IMG/VR virus record: IMGVR_UViG_3300048927_000809
Span: 1 to 39,036 of that record
DNA: 39,036 bases
From: a virus
Direction: 5' to 3' (one strand)
Shown here: positions 8,776 through 14,868 of the stretch, in pieces
Layout: each line of letters opens with the position of its first letter
Numbering within the stretch: the stretch's first letter is position 1
The notes under the pieces: model-generated
The model's database searches: none
The model's input: only the letters and a program-made list of their open reading frames with translations
Told to the model about the DNA's origin: nothing
Program-made: the position numbers and the translations under genes

Positions 8776-9017
8776 GCGCCACCCAGGATGTCAGCGAGGG
8801 CCGCACGCAGATTCGCGACATTGGCGCTCGAAAGGTGAGTGACTTCGAAGGTCTCTTCGCTGCTGTTGTGGCGGACGAACGGCTCGCAGGCCTCGATCAG
8901 ACGCTTTACCGCCGCACGCGCACGGAACACCCGGGCGTTAAGCTTGAGGTTTGACGTGTTGCCGTCCAGGTCGGACAGAAGGAGCAGCAAGTCCACTTTC
9001 TTGCTTTCGGGGCTCAT
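8772..9017 (-). CDS. Small hypothetical phage protein
   Basis: This 81-residue soluble protein starts with KKVDLLLLLSDLDGN and has a helical middle (RVFRARAAVKRLIEACEPFV) and a C-terminal helix. No family is recognised. It overlaps its downstream neighbour by ATGA and its own ATG lies in the tail of the first gene of the operon (9014-9017). It is the second gene after the leftward promoter, so it should be among the earliest expressed. Confidence 0.65.
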   Translation of the reverse strand: MSPESKKVDLLLLLSDLDGNTSNLKLNARVFRARAAVKRLIEACEPFVRHNSSEETFEVTHLSSANVANLRAALADILGGA

Positions 9018-9325
9018 GCCACACCAGCCTTCGCATCACGCGCCATGGCTTCGTAGTGGGCGAGGGCGTCGGCCTTCTTCTCGCGGTAGAACAGCGCCGC
9101 TTCGGTGAGGGCGGTGGCGAGGTTGAGGGCCTCCTGGGAGGTAAGCCCCATCGACACCGGGCCGATGTCCAGGTGCACTCCGAGAAGGTCGGCGTCAGCG
9201 GCGCGGTACTCCGGATCGGTGTTGACCGTATAACCCGAGATCGCGGTGGCGGTGTGGTTGTGCGAGACCGTTACGGTCTTACGAGTCGACTTAATCGGCA
9301 GGTAGCCAAGCTTGCTGTTGTCCAT
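9014..9325 (-). CDS. First gene of the leftward early operon, hypothetical
   Basis: This 103-residue protein begins at the ATG (9325), which has GAGAGG just upstream. The open frame continues 15 codons earlier into the operator region without a ribosome-binding site. The first half is beta-rich and polar (KLGYLPIKSTRKTVTVSHNHT), and the second half is helical (SQEALNLATALTEAALFYREKK). It is the first gene after the operator pair at 9362-9401, the position of N in lambda. It shows no arginine-rich RNA-binding motif, so I do not call it an antiterminator. Confidence 0.7.
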   Translation of the reverse strand: MDNSKLGYLPIKSTRKTVTVSHNHTATAISGYTVNTDPEYRAADADLLGVHLDIGPVSMGLTSQEALNLATALTEAALFYREKKADALAHYEAMARDAKAGVA

Positions 9326-9361
9326 CGTCCTCTCCCATCGCCGTGTGGTGGCGTGGGAGAA

Positions 9362-9401
9362 GTAAACCATAGTTGTCTTTTAGTAGTCAACCACAGTTGT
9401 C
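9362..9401 (-). promoter_or_regulatory. Left operator pair (OL-like) with probable leftward promoter
   Basis: Two 16-bp sites lie at 9362-9377 (GTAAACCATAGTTGTC) and 9386-9401 (GTCAACCACAGTTGTC). Their starts are exactly 24 bp apart. They share the GTCAAC-4-GTTGAC-like pattern with the three sites at 11427-11490. On the minus strand TTGACT in the right site and TTTACT in the left one are 18 bp apart and could be the -35 and -10 boxes, so repressor binding would block the promoter of the leftward operon. Confidence 0.75.
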
Positions 9402-9416
9402 GACATTTTTCTGCCC

Positions 9417-9439
9417 AATAAAACCCCGCCAAGGCGGGG
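9417..9439 (-). terminator. Intrinsic terminator after the secreted moron gene
   Basis: The perfect 7-bp stem CCCCGCC / GGCGGGG (9424-9430 and 9433-9439, 2-base loop) is followed on the minus strand by TTTTATT. It stops transcription from the gene at 9469-9843 before the operator region. Confidence 0.85.
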
Positions 9440-9468
9440 AGTCGATCAGGCCTTGCTGTCTACCGTCG

Positions 9469-9843
9469 TTACATGCCTAGGTCGTCGCAGAACTTCTTGG
9501 CCAGTGAATCGGGCTTGCCGAGGATAATCCCCTGATCGCGACCGTCTTTACGGTAAAGAACCAGGTAGTAAGGCTGGAAACCGGTGTAAGCGCCGAAGCG
9601 ATTCTTCGCGTTCACCATTCCACAGGCGTCGGCAGCGTGGTCGGGCTCCCATGGCTGGTAGTGTCGAATTTGGAAGCCCTTGAGACGAGCGCTTTCCGCG
9701 TCATACAACTCGTTGTCCAGAGTCGACCTGATCGTCGAAAGCTCGGCGTCTGTGGCAGGAGCGGGTGGCGCCTTCGCCTGAGCGTGCGCGACCTTCGCCG
9801 CACCCGAAGCGGCAAATGCCAGAGCCATCAGCACACTGAACAT
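9469..9843 (-). CDS. Secreted protein, probable moron
   Basis: This 124-residue protein starts at the ATG (9843), which has GGGAG upstream. It has a signal peptide (MFSVLMALAFAASGAA, cleavage near AHA-QAK) and a Pro/Ala-rich stretch. A small exported domain follows, with two or more cysteines (DACGMVNAKNRFGAYTGF ... KKFCDDL) that could form a disulfide in the periplasm. Proteins with a CGxVNxKNxxGxYxGF pattern occur in many bacteria, but I know no function. It sits between two minus-strand terminators in the immunity region, so it can be expressed in the lysogen independently of phage genes. A TAATAT box at 9876-9881 may be its -10. Confidence 0.78.
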   Translation of the reverse strand: MFSVLMALAFAASGAAKVAHAQAKAPPAPATDAELSTIRSTLDNELYDAESARLKGFQIRHYQPWEPDHAADACGMVNAKNRFGAYTGFQPYYLVLYRKDGRDQGIILGKPDSLAKKFCDDLGM

Positions 9844-9883
9844 GGACCACGTCTCCCATTTGTAAATGTCCACTCATATTACG

Positions 9884-9905
9884 AAAAAGCCCGCCTAAGC
9901 GGGCT
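9884..9905 (-). terminator. Intrinsic terminator of the repressor operon
   Basis: The stem AGCCCGC / GCGGGCT (9888-9894 and 9899-9905, loop CTAA) is followed on the minus strand by a run of five T. It ends the transcript that carries the repressor, zinc-ribbon and coiled-coil membrane genes. Confidence 0.85.
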
Positions 9906-9930
9906 GGTTCGATCCACAACAGACGGTCGG

Positions 9931-10413
9931 CTAATGCCCGCTCGTCCTGAGAATTGATATTACGAGCGACACCAAAGCGCCAACCGCGGCAGTGGCAACA
10001 GCTCCCATTGCCCAGAGTTTCAACGACGAGATTTTCTCAGCGATCCTCCCCTCGAAGGCCGTGCGGGACAACTCGCTGGCTGCCCGATTCGCATCGATCT
10101 TCGTCTCCAATTCCTTGGCCCGCTGGGTCTGTCGGACGTCGAGGTCGTCGATTTGTCGAGGTAGGCTCAATGTCAATGTCAGGACTGACGACTCCATCGT
10201 CGCAGTGGCAGCCTGAACCGCATTGGTGAGCGTGGCCGAATGCGCGTTCATCTCGGCCCGGAGCGTGTTAACGGTCCCCTCGAGTTTTGCCATGCGCTCG
10301 TTCATGCCGCCATCATCTCCGCCGCCGCCAGGCGGGTCAACAGGACTTCGCTTCGCTTTCTCCGCGTGAAAGGAGATCAAGTTGTTGCCTTGCCGCCTGA
10401 TGTCACCACTCAC
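9931..10413 (-). CDS. Coiled-coil, tail-anchored membrane protein
   Basis: This 160-residue protein has a Gly/Pro-rich N-terminal part, a long heptad-like helical region (about 37-130: RMAKLEGTVNTLRAEMNAH ... RAKELETKIDANRA) and a C-terminal membrane helix (LWAMGAVATAAVGALVSLVISIL). The GTG at 10413 has an excellent AAGGAGG seven bases upstream and overlaps the zinc-ribbon stop as GTGA. It is expected to sit in the inner membrane with the coiled coil in the cytoplasm. It is the last gene of the repressor transcript, in the position of lambda rexB. This suggests a lysogen-expressed role such as superinfection exclusion, but that is an inference. Confidence 0.75.
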   Translation of the reverse strand: MSGDIRRQGNNLISFHAEKAKRSPVDPPGGGGDDGGMNERMAKLEGTVNTLRAEMNAHSATLTNAVQAATATMESSVLTLTLSLPRQIDDLDVRQTQRAKELETKIDANRAASELSRTAFEGRIAEKISSLKLWAMGAVATAAVGALVSLVISILRTSGH

Positions 10414-10748
10414 CGCCCATCCTCCTTTTCCTTGACCCAACTCCTAACAATCATCAGTGAGTGCGTACGCATATATCCGCAACTTGAGCATGCGGTAAGG
10501 AAAACCGGTACGTTCGGGCCGGAAGCACGCGTGGATAGATCACCCTGCTCGTCAAAGAACTCGAAGGCAGCGTATGCGCCGGTTCCGGCCGGGCTGAAAA
10601 TGATGTCCCACACCTTGTTCTGGCAGACCGGGCAGGAAATCTCTTTGCCTGCCCACTTTTCTTTCAGAAATTCAAGGGCTTGATCTTCAGAGATTACAGT
10701 CCCTTGGACGGTTACATAGACGCCGGCATCCTTATTTTCAATGGCCAT
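10410..10748 (-). CDS. Zinc-ribbon protein in the repressor operon
   Basis: This 112-residue protein has CPVC near residue 39 and CSSCGY near residue 87, the two knuckles of a zinc ribbon around an insert of about 45 residues that ends in SGPNVPVFLTA. The N-terminal part (1-33) is a helix and strand. It starts 21 bases after the repressor stop and overlaps the coiled-coil membrane gene by GTGA, so the two are co-translated. It occupies the place of lambda rexA. A sensor or adaptor for the membrane partner is a reasonable guess; no catalytic residues are seen. Confidence 0.75.
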   Translation of the reverse strand: MAIENKDAGVYVTVQGTVISEDQALEFLKEKWAGKEISCPVCQNKVWDIIFSPAGTGAYAAFEFFDEQGDLSTRASGPNVPVFLTACSSCGYMRTHSLMIVRSWVKEKEDGR

Positions 10749-10769
10749 CGGACTAGAAATCCTTGTTCT

Positions 10770-11426
10770 TCAGTCTTCCCAGCTTCCGATCCACCGAACC
10801 CGGCCGTGGATCTCGAAGTGCTTGGTTTCATCGACCGGAACCGGCTTCCGCCACTTCGGGTCGTCCGTGTTGTCGCTCTTGATGAACCAGCGCCCGCCTA
10901 GGTCCGTTAGCCGCTTGGCCATGAGAGCCCCGTCGTAGCTGATCACATAAATCTTATCGTCGCGGGGCTCGACGTCTGAAGTGTCGAACAGGATGGCGTC
11001 CCCATCCTTGATCGTCGGCACCATGGACTCACCCTTTCCATATAGAACGGCCAGCTTGTCCGCCTTCAGTCGCTTGCGACGCAGAGATTCGGCACGGAAC
11101 TTCAGCTTATGGGTCTCGGCGTACTCGTCTGCCACAGCTCCATCGCCCAAAGCCGCAGCCTGCCTCACGCCGATGATATCGGCCCAGCCCTCTTCGGCCG
11201 GCGCTTCGTCGACATGCTTTGGTGCCCGCCCCTCGGTCAGCCAGCGGACGCTAACGCCTAGCAGGCGCGCGATCGGCTCCATGGTGGACATCGCTGGCTC
11301 GAGAGTGCCGCCGTTCTCGATCTTCGAGATGGCCTGCTTCGAGACCCCAGCCACCCGGGCGAGATCTTCCTGTTTCGCCTTCTTGTCCCTGCGGGCTTCC
11401 CGCAGCCTTTCCGCCAGTGTGCCCAT
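10770..11426 (-). CDS. CI-like repressor (XRE HTH plus S24 peptidase domain)
   Basis: This 218-residue protein maintains lysogeny. Residues 1-62 form an XRE helix-turn-helix (QEDLARVAGVSKQAISKIENG), followed by a linker and an S24/LexA-like C-terminal domain. The nucleophile Ser lies in GESMVPTIKDGDAI and the general-base Lys in ALMAKRLTD. An obvious Ala-Gly or Cys-Gly cleavage site is not seen in the linker. The start could be the ATG at 11426 or 11435. The operator at 11427-11442 overlaps both, and neither has a ribosome-binding site, which suggests a leaderless mRNA as for lambda cI. It is divergent from cro and probably autoregulated. Confidence 0.93.
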   Translation of the reverse strand: MGTLAERLREARRDKKAKQEDLARVAGVSKQAISKIENGGTLEPAMSTMEPIARLLGVSVRWLTEGRAPKHVDEAPAEEGWADIIGVRQAAALGDGAVADEYAETHKLKFRAESLRRKRLKADKLAVLYGKGESMVPTIKDGDAILFDTSDVEPRDDKIYVISYDGALMAKRLTDLGGRWFIKSDNTDDPKWRKPVPVDETKHFEIHGRVRWIGSWED

Positions 11427-11490
11427 GTCAACCATTGTTGACGAACCTGAGTAACCTGTAGTTGACCTCATATGGACAACTATGGTTGAC
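11427..11490. promoter_or_regulatory. Right operator triplet (OR-like) between repressor and cro
   Basis: Three 16-bp partial palindromes start at 11427 (GTCAACCATTGTTGAC), 11451 (GTAACCTGTAGTTGAC) and 11475 (GACAACTATGGTTGAC), each exactly 24 bp after the last. The first overlaps the repressor start and the third ends 7 bp before the cro ATG. The sites supply TTGAC boxes at an 18-bp spacing from each other, so promoters in both directions would be covered by repressor or Cro. Confidence 0.82.
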
Positions 11491-11497
11491 TATCGCC

Positions 11498-11701
11498 ATG
11501 ACTGAGACGGCGCGAATCACCAAAGAGCAGGCGCTTGCCCTGTACGACGGAAACCAGGCAGCTCTGGGCCGCGGACTTGGCGTCTCTCGCCAGGCGATCA
11601 ACAAGCTTCCCGACGGCGCCCTGCCCGAATGGATGGACCTGAAGCTTCGTTTCGTCCTGAAGCCCGACGTCTTTCGGCTGCGTGCTGGGAGGGTCGCCTG
11701 A
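11498..11701 (+). CDS. cro: Cro-like DNA-binding protein
   Basis: This 67-residue protein is encoded divergently from the repressor and has a Cro/YdaS-like helix-turn-helix (EQALALYDGNQAALGRGLGVSRQAINKLPDG). It should bind the same 16-bp operators and favour lytic growth. The ATG at 11498 is preferred because the open frame upstream runs through the operators. There is no ribosome-binding site. If TTGACC (11462) and TTGACT (11486) are -35 and -10, transcription would start almost exactly at the ATG, giving a leaderless message. Confidence 0.85.
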   Translation: MTETARITKEQALALYDGNQAALGRGLGVSRQAINKLPDGALPEWMDLKLRFVLKPDVFRLRAGRVA

Positions 11702-11905: not shown

Positions 11906-12361
11906 ATGAATGTTCTCGACGCAGCTCAGGCAACGGTGAAGGCATACCCTGGCGGCGCTGAATCGCTGGCGCCGCGGCTCGGTATGTCCGGCGCGCTCCT
12001 TCGCGGCAAGGTCAACCCCGGCTACGACAGGAACCACCTCACGCTGGCCGAAGCCGACCTGCTGATGACCGTCGCCGCCGACCACCGCATCCTTCACGCG
12101 CTGGCGCATGCGCACGGCTATGTGCTTCAGCGTTGCGATGAACTGGAAAGGGAGCGCGAGCAGGCCCAGCACCGCGTCGACGAACTCGTGCTGCAGCTGA
12201 TGCAGGCCACGGGCAGCTTCGCCGGCACGATCGCCGAGGCGCGCGAGGACGGGGTCATCACGCCGAACGAGGCGAAGGACACGTCGAACGCCGGCATGCA
12301 GGTACAGAAAACCGTCGTCGACTTGGTCGCCGCGATCCAGAACCAGGTACGGCTGGGCTGA
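11906..12361 (+). CDS. CII-like phage regulatory protein (CP76 family)
   Basis: This 151-residue protein resembles the phage regulatory CII family (PF06892 type). Its N-terminal HTH starts NVLDAAQATVKAYPGGAESLAPRLGMSGALLRGKVNP, and the typical segment HLTLAEADLLMTVAADHRIL follows. A helical, coiled-coil-like C-terminal half (ELEREREQAQHRVDELVLQLM) probably mediates oligomerisation. In this position it should influence the lysis-lysogeny choice by activating promoters of the repressor or integrase. The ATG at 11906 is used; an upstream TTG at 11891 is possible. Confidence 0.82.
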   Translation: MNVLDAAQATVKAYPGGAESLAPRLGMSGALLRGKVNPGYDRNHLTLAEADLLMTVAADHRILHALAHAHGYVLQRCDELEREREQAQHRVDELVLQLMQATGSFAGTIAEAREDGVITPNEAKDTSNAGMQVQKTVVDLVAAIQNQVRLG

Positions 12362-12781: not shown

Positions 12782-13534
12782 ATGGCCCGCATTCGTTCCA
12801 TCAAACCTGAGTTCCCACAGTCGCAAAGCATGGGCAACGTCTCGCGAGACGCCCGGTTGCTTTTCATACTCCTCTGGCCTATTTGCGACGACCACGGGAG
12901 GACTCGAGCGGACTCTCGAATGCTCGCGAGCCTTCTTTTCCCCTACGACAACGACGCCGACAGCGTGGCGAAGACCACCAGGGCCGACGTCGAGGCCTGG
13001 CTGGCGGAATTGGAGCGCGAGGGCTGCATCACGCGTTACGAATCGAACGGCTCGACCTACCTCGAAATCAGTAACTGGCTGATCCACCAGAAAATCGATA
13101 AGCCAAGCAAGCCGCAATTCCCCGAGCCCTCTCGACCACTCGCGAGTATTCGCGAAGTGTCGTCGGAGGAAGGGAAGGGAGAGGAAGGGAAGGGAGAGGA
13201 GGGGAGTAGTAGCGCTGGCGCGCCCCCACCCATCGATCCACCATCGGAGGACAGCTCCGGCAAGCCGTTGAAGACCCGCGGCACTCGCTTGGCGGTCGAC
13301 TGGCACCCGAGCACCGAGGACATGCGGTGGGCGATAGACGCACGCCCCGACATCGACGTGAAGGTCGAAGTCGAAACGTTCCGGGATTACTGGAAGGCCA
13401 AGGCCGGGCCTGACGCGGTGAAGGTCGACTGGCCGGCGACCTGGCGCAACTGGATTCGCCGTTCGCACAGCCAGCGCTCTGGCGGCCAGCGGCCTCCCGA
13501 GGCTCCCCGCAAGCGGCAGGAGCTGCGCCGATGA
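12782..13534 (+). CDS. O-like replication initiator protein
   Basis: This 250-residue protein starts with the ARIRSIKPEF motif typical of phage O/DnaT-like replication proteins. An N-terminal winged-helix domain occupies about 1-110 (LLFILLWPICDDHGRTRADSR ... ITRYESNGSTYLEISNW). A low-complexity Glu/Gly/Ser/Pro linker follows. The C-terminal DnaT-like domain (180-240) contains FRDYWKAKAG and VDWPATWRNWIRR. It should bind the phage origin and recruit the helicase encoded by the next gene, with which it overlaps by ATGA. The ATG at 12782 has GGAG upstream. The linker is encoded by a purine-rich tandem repeat next to palindromes that may be the origin. Confidence 0.85.
   Translation: MARIRSIKPEFPQSQSMGNVSRDARLLFILLWPICDDHGRTRADSRMLASLLFPYDNDADSVAKTTRADVEAWLAELEREGCITRYESNGSTYLEISNWLIHQKIDKPSKPQFPEPSRPLASIREVSSEEGKGEEGKGEEGSSSAGAPPPIDPPSEDSSGKPLKTRGTRLAVDWHPSTEDMRWAIDARPDIDVKVEVETFRDYWKAKAGPDAVKVDWPATWRNWIRRSHSQRSGGQRPPEAPRKRQELRR
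13138..13207. repeat. Palindrome and purine-repeat cluster, candidate replication origin
   Basis: Inside the initiator gene the palindromes ACTCGCGAGT (13138-13147) and TTCGCGAA (13149-13156) lie next to a 15-bp purine repeat GAGGAAGGGAAGGGA (13166-13180, 13181-13195) that continues partly to 13207. Two more CTCGCGAG palindromes occur at 12841-12848 and 12923-12930. Lambda-type origins lie inside the O gene with iterons beside a strand-biased segment, which this resembles. Confidence 0.45.
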
Positions 13535-14322
13535 ACATGCGCGAATCCATAGCGATGGGCCTGCGCGTGCCTCCGTCGTCCGTGGACGCCGAGCAGAGTG
13601 TCCTGGGCGGCCTGATGCTGGCTCCCGACCGCATCGACGCCGTGTCGGCGCGACTGGATGAGGGCGACTTCTACCGCCGCGACCACCGGATGATCTACCG
13701 GGCGATGCTCGAACTTTCCCGCCGCGGCACGCCGTGCGACGCGATCACCCTGGGCGAGTGGTTCGTCCGCAACGACTTCGACACGGTCGAGCCGACGTAC
13801 CTGATGACGCTGGCGAACGACACGCCGAGCGCGGCGAACATCGATGCCTATGCCCGGATCGTCCGCGAGAAGGCCATGCGCCGGCGAGTGATCGACGTGG
13901 CCACCCAGATGGTCGAGCACGCCTACGGCGTCGAGCAGGACGCCACCGAGCTGGTGGACGGCGGCATCGCCCAGCTGATGGGCATGCAGCACGTCGAGCA
14001 GAATACCGAGTACACACTCCGTCAGGCCTTGACGATCGCCTACGAGGCGGCGGAGGCAGCGAAGGCCCGCGGCGGCAAGATCCCCGGGATCCCCACCGGC
14101 CTCACCGAGCTGGACGACGTGCTGGGTGGCCTGCACAACTCCGACCTGATCGTGATCGGCGCTCGCCCGTCGATGGGCAAGACCGCGCTGCTGCTGAATA
14201 TGGCGCTTGGCGATGACGGGGCGGCCGGCCTTTTCTCGACCGAGCAGCCGGTGGTGCAGATCGGCTCGCGCCTCCTTGCGATCGAGGGTGGCGTCAATGC
14301 CTCACGCTTGCGCAACGGCTAA
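13531..14322 (+). CDS. dnaB: DnaB-like replicative helicase, N-terminal part (in-frame stop)
   Basis: This 263-residue piece is the front part of a DnaB helicase, the hexameric enzyme that unwinds DNA at phage forks. It contains the N-terminal DnaB domain (about 17-115: VDAEQSVLGGLMLAPDR), the linker, and the start of the RecA-like motor with the Walker A loop GARPSMGKTALLL and FSTEQP. The frame then stops at TAA (14320-14322) after RLRNG, where homologues continue. The same frame goes on without further stops to 14868 and carries the remaining motifs. So the gene is either broken by a nonsense change, affected by a sequence error, or made as two chains. Confidence 0.85.
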   Translation: MNMRESIAMGLRVPPSSVDAEQSVLGGLMLAPDRIDAVSARLDEGDFYRRDHRMIYRAMLELSRRGTPCDAITLGEWFVRNDFDTVEPTYLMTLANDTPSAANIDAYARIVREKAMRRRVIDVATQMVEHAYGVEQDATELVDGGIAQLMGMQHVEQNTEYTLRQALTIAYEAAEAAKARGGKIPGIPTGLTELDDVLGGLHNSDLIVIGARPSMGKTALLLNMALGDDGAAGLFSTEQPVVQIGSRLLAIEGGVNASRLRNG

Positions 14323-14370
14323 CACGACGAGGAAGACCTCGGGCGCCTGGCGAACGCGGTCGGGAACCTG

Positions 14371-14868
14371 ATGGGCCGCGAGCTGATGATCAGCGACCGC
14401 GCCGGCCTGACGATCGGCGAATTGCAGCGCACCGCCCGCCGGTGGAAGCAGAAGCATGGCATCAAGCGCCTGCTGGTGGATTACGTGCAGCGTGTGAAGG
14501 GCAACGACCCGCGCATGTCGCGCATCGACCAGGTGGGCGAGGTTGCCATCGGGCTGAAGGACATCGCCCGCGAGCTGGACATCCCGGTCGTGGCCCTGGC
14601 CCAGGTGAACCGCGAGGTCGAGAAGCGCCCGAACAAGCGCCCGAACATGGGTGACCTCGCCAACTCGAGCGAGATCGAGAAAGAGGCCGACCAGGTGCTC
14701 ATGCTTTACCGGGACGAGGTCTACAACGACGACAGCCAGGACAAGGGCATCGCCGAGATCAGCGTGGAGAAGAACCGGCACGGCCCCACCGGCTTCATTC
14801 GGGCCGCATGGCAGGCCGAGACCATGCGCTTCCGCGACTTCGCGCCTTACGGTGGTTTCGATGACTGA
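14371..14868 (+). CDS. dnaB: DnaB-like replicative helicase, C-terminal part
   Basis: This 165-residue piece lies in the same frame as the previous gene and completes the DnaB motor. It has the Walker B segment KRLLVDYVQRVKG, the DIPVVALAQVNREVEKRPNKR motif with Gln and the arginine-rich loop, the E-K-E-A-D-QVLMLYRD strand, and NRHGPTG near the end. The ATG at 14371 has GGGAACCTG in front and could allow re-initiation. Without the Walker A loop it cannot hydrolyse ATP alone. Only restoration of codon 264 of the full frame would give a normal helicase of about 445 residues. Confidence 0.75.
   Translation: MGRELMISDRAGLTIGELQRTARRWKQKHGIKRLLVDYVQRVKGNDPRMSRIDQVGEVAIGLKDIARELDIPVVALAQVNREVEKRPNKRPNMGDLANSSEIEKEADQVLMLYRDEVYNDDSQDKGIAEISVEKNRHGPTGFIRAAWQAETMRFRDFAPYGGFDD

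Follow-up and report, generated by a model that had tools for sequence, protein, structure and literature searches.

Gene organization around the repressor

The window, that is, the whole 39,036-nt stretch of viral DNA analysed here (65% GC), contains a divergent repressor and cro-like gene pair with clustered palindromic operators between them. The repressor gene (10770–11426, minus strand) encodes a 218-aa protein with HTH_3 and Peptidase_S24 domains, both above curated cut-offs, and its PHROG match is a transcriptional repressor; its ATG abuts the operator OR3. The gene at 11498–11701 (plus strand) encodes a 67-aa Cro-like HTH protein with weak family matches (YdaS_toxin, E = 0.016; P22_Cro, E = 0.085). 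It has no Shine–Dalgarno (SD) sequence and is predicted to be leaderless; the original prediction had placed its start near 11498, and an ATG is present there. Rightward of cro lie a CII-like regulator (11909–12361, plus strand; Phage_CP76 domain match) and then a gene for a replication-initiation protein. By eye, a replicative-helicase-like frame at 13531–14868 also seems to be split into 13531–14322 and 14371–14868, perhaps by a frameshift or an intervening change.

Downstream of the repressor gene, the lysogeny operon continues with three accessory genes (approximately 9469–9843, 9931–10407 and 10410–10748, minus strand; not all start codons are certain) that span 9469–10748 and occupy the position of lambda rexAB. 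A rho-independent terminator closes this operon (9424–9439, minus strand), just before the left operators (OL), and a second terminator-like hairpin lies at 9888–9905. The second operator cluster, on the far side of the repressor operon, coincides with the leftward early promoter; the first leftward early gene (9014–9325, minus strand; 103 aa) has an SD, and the leftward genes beyond OL include an integrase at 1–1110. The operators flank the lysogeny operon, the cro-like and leftward early genes are placed outside, and the order of repressor, cro, CII-like, replication-initiation and integrase genes is that of lambda.

Sequence and spacing of the operators

The 16-bp palindrome GWCAAC-N4-GTTGWC occurs in the window in five copies. 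These start at 9362 and 9386 on the left and at 11427, 11451 and 11475 on the right, exactly where they had been predicted, and all steps within the groups are exactly 24 bp. The OL site at 9362–9377 (GTAAACCATAGTTGTC) overlaps the −10 element of the predicted leftward promoter and the one at 9386–9401 (GTCAACCACAGTTGTC) carries its TTGACT −35 element; relatives, including those with other operator sequences, have a counterpart pair. On the right, OR3 (11427–11442; GTCAACCATTGTTGAC), OR2 (11451–11466; GTAACCTGTAGTTGAC) and OR1 (11475–11490; GACAACTATGGTTGAC) are centred at −8.5, −32.5 and −56.5 from the repressor ATG. OR2 and OR1, which carry the −35 and −10 elements of the predicted cro promoter, are centred at −39.5 and −15.5 from the cro ATG. 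The two groups are approximately 2.08 kb apart, and the window has two OL sites compared with three in lambda.

A motif scan had been suggested with the original prediction as a check. With three mismatches allowed, single matches are not rare in the window (15 found versus 13.3 expected by chance), and sites scoring at least 10/12 number 7 in the whole window versus a mean of 3.6 per shuffle (500 shuffles). A pair of sites 24 bp apart was found in 0 of 500 shuffles, whereas the window has three such steps. The 24-bp spacing, and not the abundance of single sites, is the signal. Sites that arose by chance or serve another regulator would fit the ordinary number of single matches at three mismatches, but the spacing, the position and the comparative evidence below make this extremely improbable.

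Operator classes and repressor DNA-binding ends among relatives

We compared the locus with those of repressor relatives (16 viral and 9 genomic loci), among them Luteibacter, Dyella, Lysobacter, Xanthomonas and Stenotrophomonas, together with one short contig binned as Hyphomicrobiales; the hosts of the phage carrying the window's locus are probably Rhodanobacteraceae/Xanthomonadaceae. The C-terminal part of the repressor is common to the relatives (48–94% identity among representatives), whereas the N-termini of different classes are mostly 16–37% identical, and up to 52% for the closest classes. The window and L008 repressors, for example, share 29% of the N-terminal 62 residues and 85% of the C-terminal 130. 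Two loci, L025 and L026, have S24 domains with other N-termini or lie on short contigs. RecA-dependent self-cleavage of lambda-like repressors takes place at an Ala-Gly or Cys-Gly pair. Aligned with the Cys-Gly of the phage D3 repressor (ECGDG), this family reads Leu-Gly (ALGDG), and the lambda alignment is gapped there; this makes SOS self-cleavage of the repressor uncertain.

Upstream of each intact repressor gene we found two to three copies of a class-specific palindrome: GTAAAT-N4-ATTTAC, TATGG-N4-CCATA, TACGG-N4-CCGTA, GTTCAT-N4-CTAGAC, GTCTAG-N4-CTAGAC, ATTAG-N5-CTAAT or ACTAG-N5-CTAGT. The OR sites are spaced 22–24 bp apart, or 24 and then 35 bp in two classes, and classes D and E and part of class F lack OR3 or have a degenerate copy. 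Nearly all relatives with enough downstream DNA also have an OL pair, 22–25 bp apart and 0.9–3.1 kb away; none was found at L020, where the locus ends soon after the repressor match. The class motifs had been partly refined with OL sites, and a shuffle test restricted to words derived from OR served as an independent test: a pair 21–26 bp apart was found 0.9–3.1 kb downstream at 14 of 14 loci, beating all 60 shuffles per locus. Locus L031, found by its HTH sequence alone, has class-A sites at −64, −40 and −16 with the ATG abutting, and a pair at +2.1 kb. The class-A operators are also kept in L012 and L013, in which no cro-like gene was found at the expected place. When the viral contigs were queried with the Cro protein or with the exact OL pattern, nothing was found beyond the contig of L005 itself.

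The strongest evidence is that relatives appear to swap the operator sequence together with the HTH end of the repressor, while the S24 end and the layout stay. The proposal of lambda-like OL/OR operators is strongly supported by the gene order, by the same layout in relatives with other operators and by L031.

Early promoters and predicted transcript starts

The operators overlap the −35 and −10 elements of both early promoters as judged from sequence geometry: TTGACC-18-TTGACT toward cro and TTGACT-18-TTTACT leftward. The TTGAC-type −35 elements and the 18-bp spacer of the original prediction are present; the −10 hexamers are poor (3/6 for cro and 4/6 leftward), and a generic promoter scan of the window reported neither early promoter. 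Support for the two promoters comes from the relatives. Every class has a TTGAC (class I: TTGTAA) in or at the outer half of OR2, the leftward TTGAC falls within the first OL site, and a hexamer such as TTGACT, TTTACT, TAGACT, TAGTAT or TAATAT follows the −35 element by 16–18 bp.

The distance between the −35 element, counted from its first T, and the cro start codon is 34–38 nt in all classes in which a cro was found. From this geometry, transcription would begin at the start codon or no more than 2 nt from it, and the cro mRNA should be leaderless; the repressor mRNA is probably leaderless too. Leaderless mRNAs for both genes had been predicted, and the conserved geometry points the same way. 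The weak −10 elements could let starts slip by a few nucleotides, giving short leaders without an SD on both mRNAs, but the constancy of the 34–38-nt distance in all cro-bearing classes and the position of OR3, which in most of the classes with this site directly adjoins the repressor ATG, make such leaders unlikely. A promoter that would give the repressor mRNA a leader, with TTGTCC in OR1 as −35 and GTTACT as −10, was also considered, and rejected on finding classes such as F and G without a matching −35 element.

The leftward early gene is not leaderless: its ATG, at 9325, is preceded by a leader (9326–9361, minus strand) with a strong SD, and its transcript is predicted to start at approximately 9354. 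Among the relatives, the leftward gene starts 60–88 nt after its −35 element and, wherever a start was called, always has an SD (−6.4 to −12.4 kcal/mol). The contrast between a leaderless cro and a leadered leftward gene is, as predicted from these sequences, conserved.

An inverted repeat in this leader pairs CTCCC with the SD (−19.5 kcal/mol, z = −5.6), and similar repeats, with CTCC pairing the SD, are seen in the leaders of L005, L006, L008, L010, L011, L012, L015, L016, L018 and L027. A conserved RNA hairpin was not supported: in a covariation test, cognate arms had no pairing advantage over swapped ones (p ~0.52), and a leader alignment gave no consensus structure; the leader had no match in Rfam. 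By promoter geometry, the predicted +1 is the end of the 5′ arm of the repeat. Because the transcript would start there, only RNA reading through from upstream would hide the SD, and RNA from the promoter itself would not. The SD of T4 gene e is hidden similarly in read-through RNA.

Geometry of OR and control of the repressor gene

In classes A–G, the centres of the OR sites relative to the repressor ATG lie within approximately 2 bp of those in the window. In classes H and I the centres lie at −67, −43 and −8 from the repressor start, and the repressors have a lambda-like N-terminal arm and keep E and D as counterparts of E34 and D38, the lambda residues for activation. The window's OR2 is not at the activating position of approximately −42 but at −32.5, counted from the ATG. 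As read from the sequence, OR2 is thus nearer to the repressor start than lambda OR2 by one helical turn, a shift on the repressor side that the original prediction did not foresee.

For any start that permits translation from the ATG, OR2 would overlap the −35 region of the repressor promoter, which makes lambda-type activation unlikely; repressor bound at OR2 should block this promoter, not activate it. Maintenance of the repressor by positive autoregulation from OR2 has a model in lambda, D3 and classes H and I, where OR2 is centred at −42 to −43.5. In the window, OR2 would lie at −32.5 even with a start at the ATG and closer still with a longer leader, and in the alignment the acidic equivalent of lambda D38 is not conserved, so we regard positive autoregulation here as quite improbable.

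A proposed switch and the role of OL

The locus is very likely the immunity region of a temperate lambda-like phage, with operators and mechanism as proposed here. In the mechanism, for which we infer binding, promoter use, transcript starts and autoregulation from the arrangement of sites, repressor dimers would bind the three OR sites between their own gene and cro and the two OL sites before the leftward early genes. Occupied operators would silence both early operons because the sites cover −35 and −10 elements. OR3 as well as OR2 overlaps the predicted promoter of the repressor gene, so the protein should restrain its own production, with no lambda-type activation from OR2. The Cro-like protein would probably use the same sites, turning the repressor gene down in lytic growth. 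Leaderless mRNAs would probably serve cro and the repressor, and a leadered mRNA the leftward gene.

Cooperative repressor binding and a putative 2-kb OL–OR loop, both part of the original prediction, are plausible. The alternative is that OR alone forms the switch and the OL pair only shuts the leftward promoter, with no loop. The OL–OR distance is not conserved among relatives (approximately 0.9–3.1 kb), long-range cooperativity is undecided in phiKO2 too (PMC4997575), and the repressor of 933W, a phage without OL3, reportedly shows no cooperativity between adjacent sites (PMC3317979). Against this, a spacing of about 24 bp is kept across classes whose operators differ in sequence and length, which contact between adjacent dimers would predict, and lambda pairs of this kind loop over approximately 2.3 kb (PMC5880393). 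We give an OR-only switch a real chance, though somewhat short of even.

Comparison with known systems

We propose, as very nearly an even call, that the relatives form a modular family: the HTH half of the repressor would change in step with OR and the distant OL pair, and the S24 half and the layout would be retained. In most classes OR2 and OR1 would sit at −32.5 and −56.5, one turn closer than in lambda, with leaderless repressor and cro mRNAs and purely negative autoregulation; the classes with a lambda-like N-terminus, at −43 and −67, could self-activate. The finding extends the plan of lambda, N15 and D3 to phages of Luteibacter, Dyella, Xanthomonas and related bacteria, and it provides about eight operator classes as a natural series built on a single repressor scaffold. 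Comparing these classes makes it possible to test two old questions, namely which constraints on spacing are due to repressor contacts and whether a stable lambda-type switch needs positive autoregulation. Neither the class-swapping family nor the one-turn shift was found described in the literature searched, which covered few subscription journals, and nothing specific was found on operators or leaderless transcripts of Xanthomonas prophages.

This is a lambda-type switch with close precedents in N15/phiKO2, PY54 and D3, and the family and the shift are, provisionally, its new parts. The window shares with lambda the order of N side, OL, accessory genes, cI, OR, cro and cII and the 24-bp OR1–OR2 and OL1–OL2 spacings; lambda differs in its three OL sites, its unrelated operator sequence, the leader of cro and the positions of OR2 (−42) and OR3 (−19) from cI. 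Phage 933W resembles the window in having fewer OL sites than lambda. The immB region of N15/phiKO2 has, like the window, a divergent repressor (CB) and cro with five 16-bp operators, three in OR and two in OL (PMC4997575), but these are plasmid prophages in which OL controls repA, and OR of N15 begins 12 bp from the repressor start, compared with 1 bp in the window. In PY54 immB, the cI and cro mRNAs are both leaderless by RACE (PMC4488713), as predicted for the window, but there is a single recognisable operator. Pseudomonas phage D3, whose repressor is 35% identical to that of the window, carries three 14-bp sites annotated as putative operators, each exactly 24 bp from the next, and, downstream of cI, a similar pair of sites with TTGACA and a 25-bp spacing; unlike the window, its cro has an SD and its OR2 lies at −43.5 from cI.
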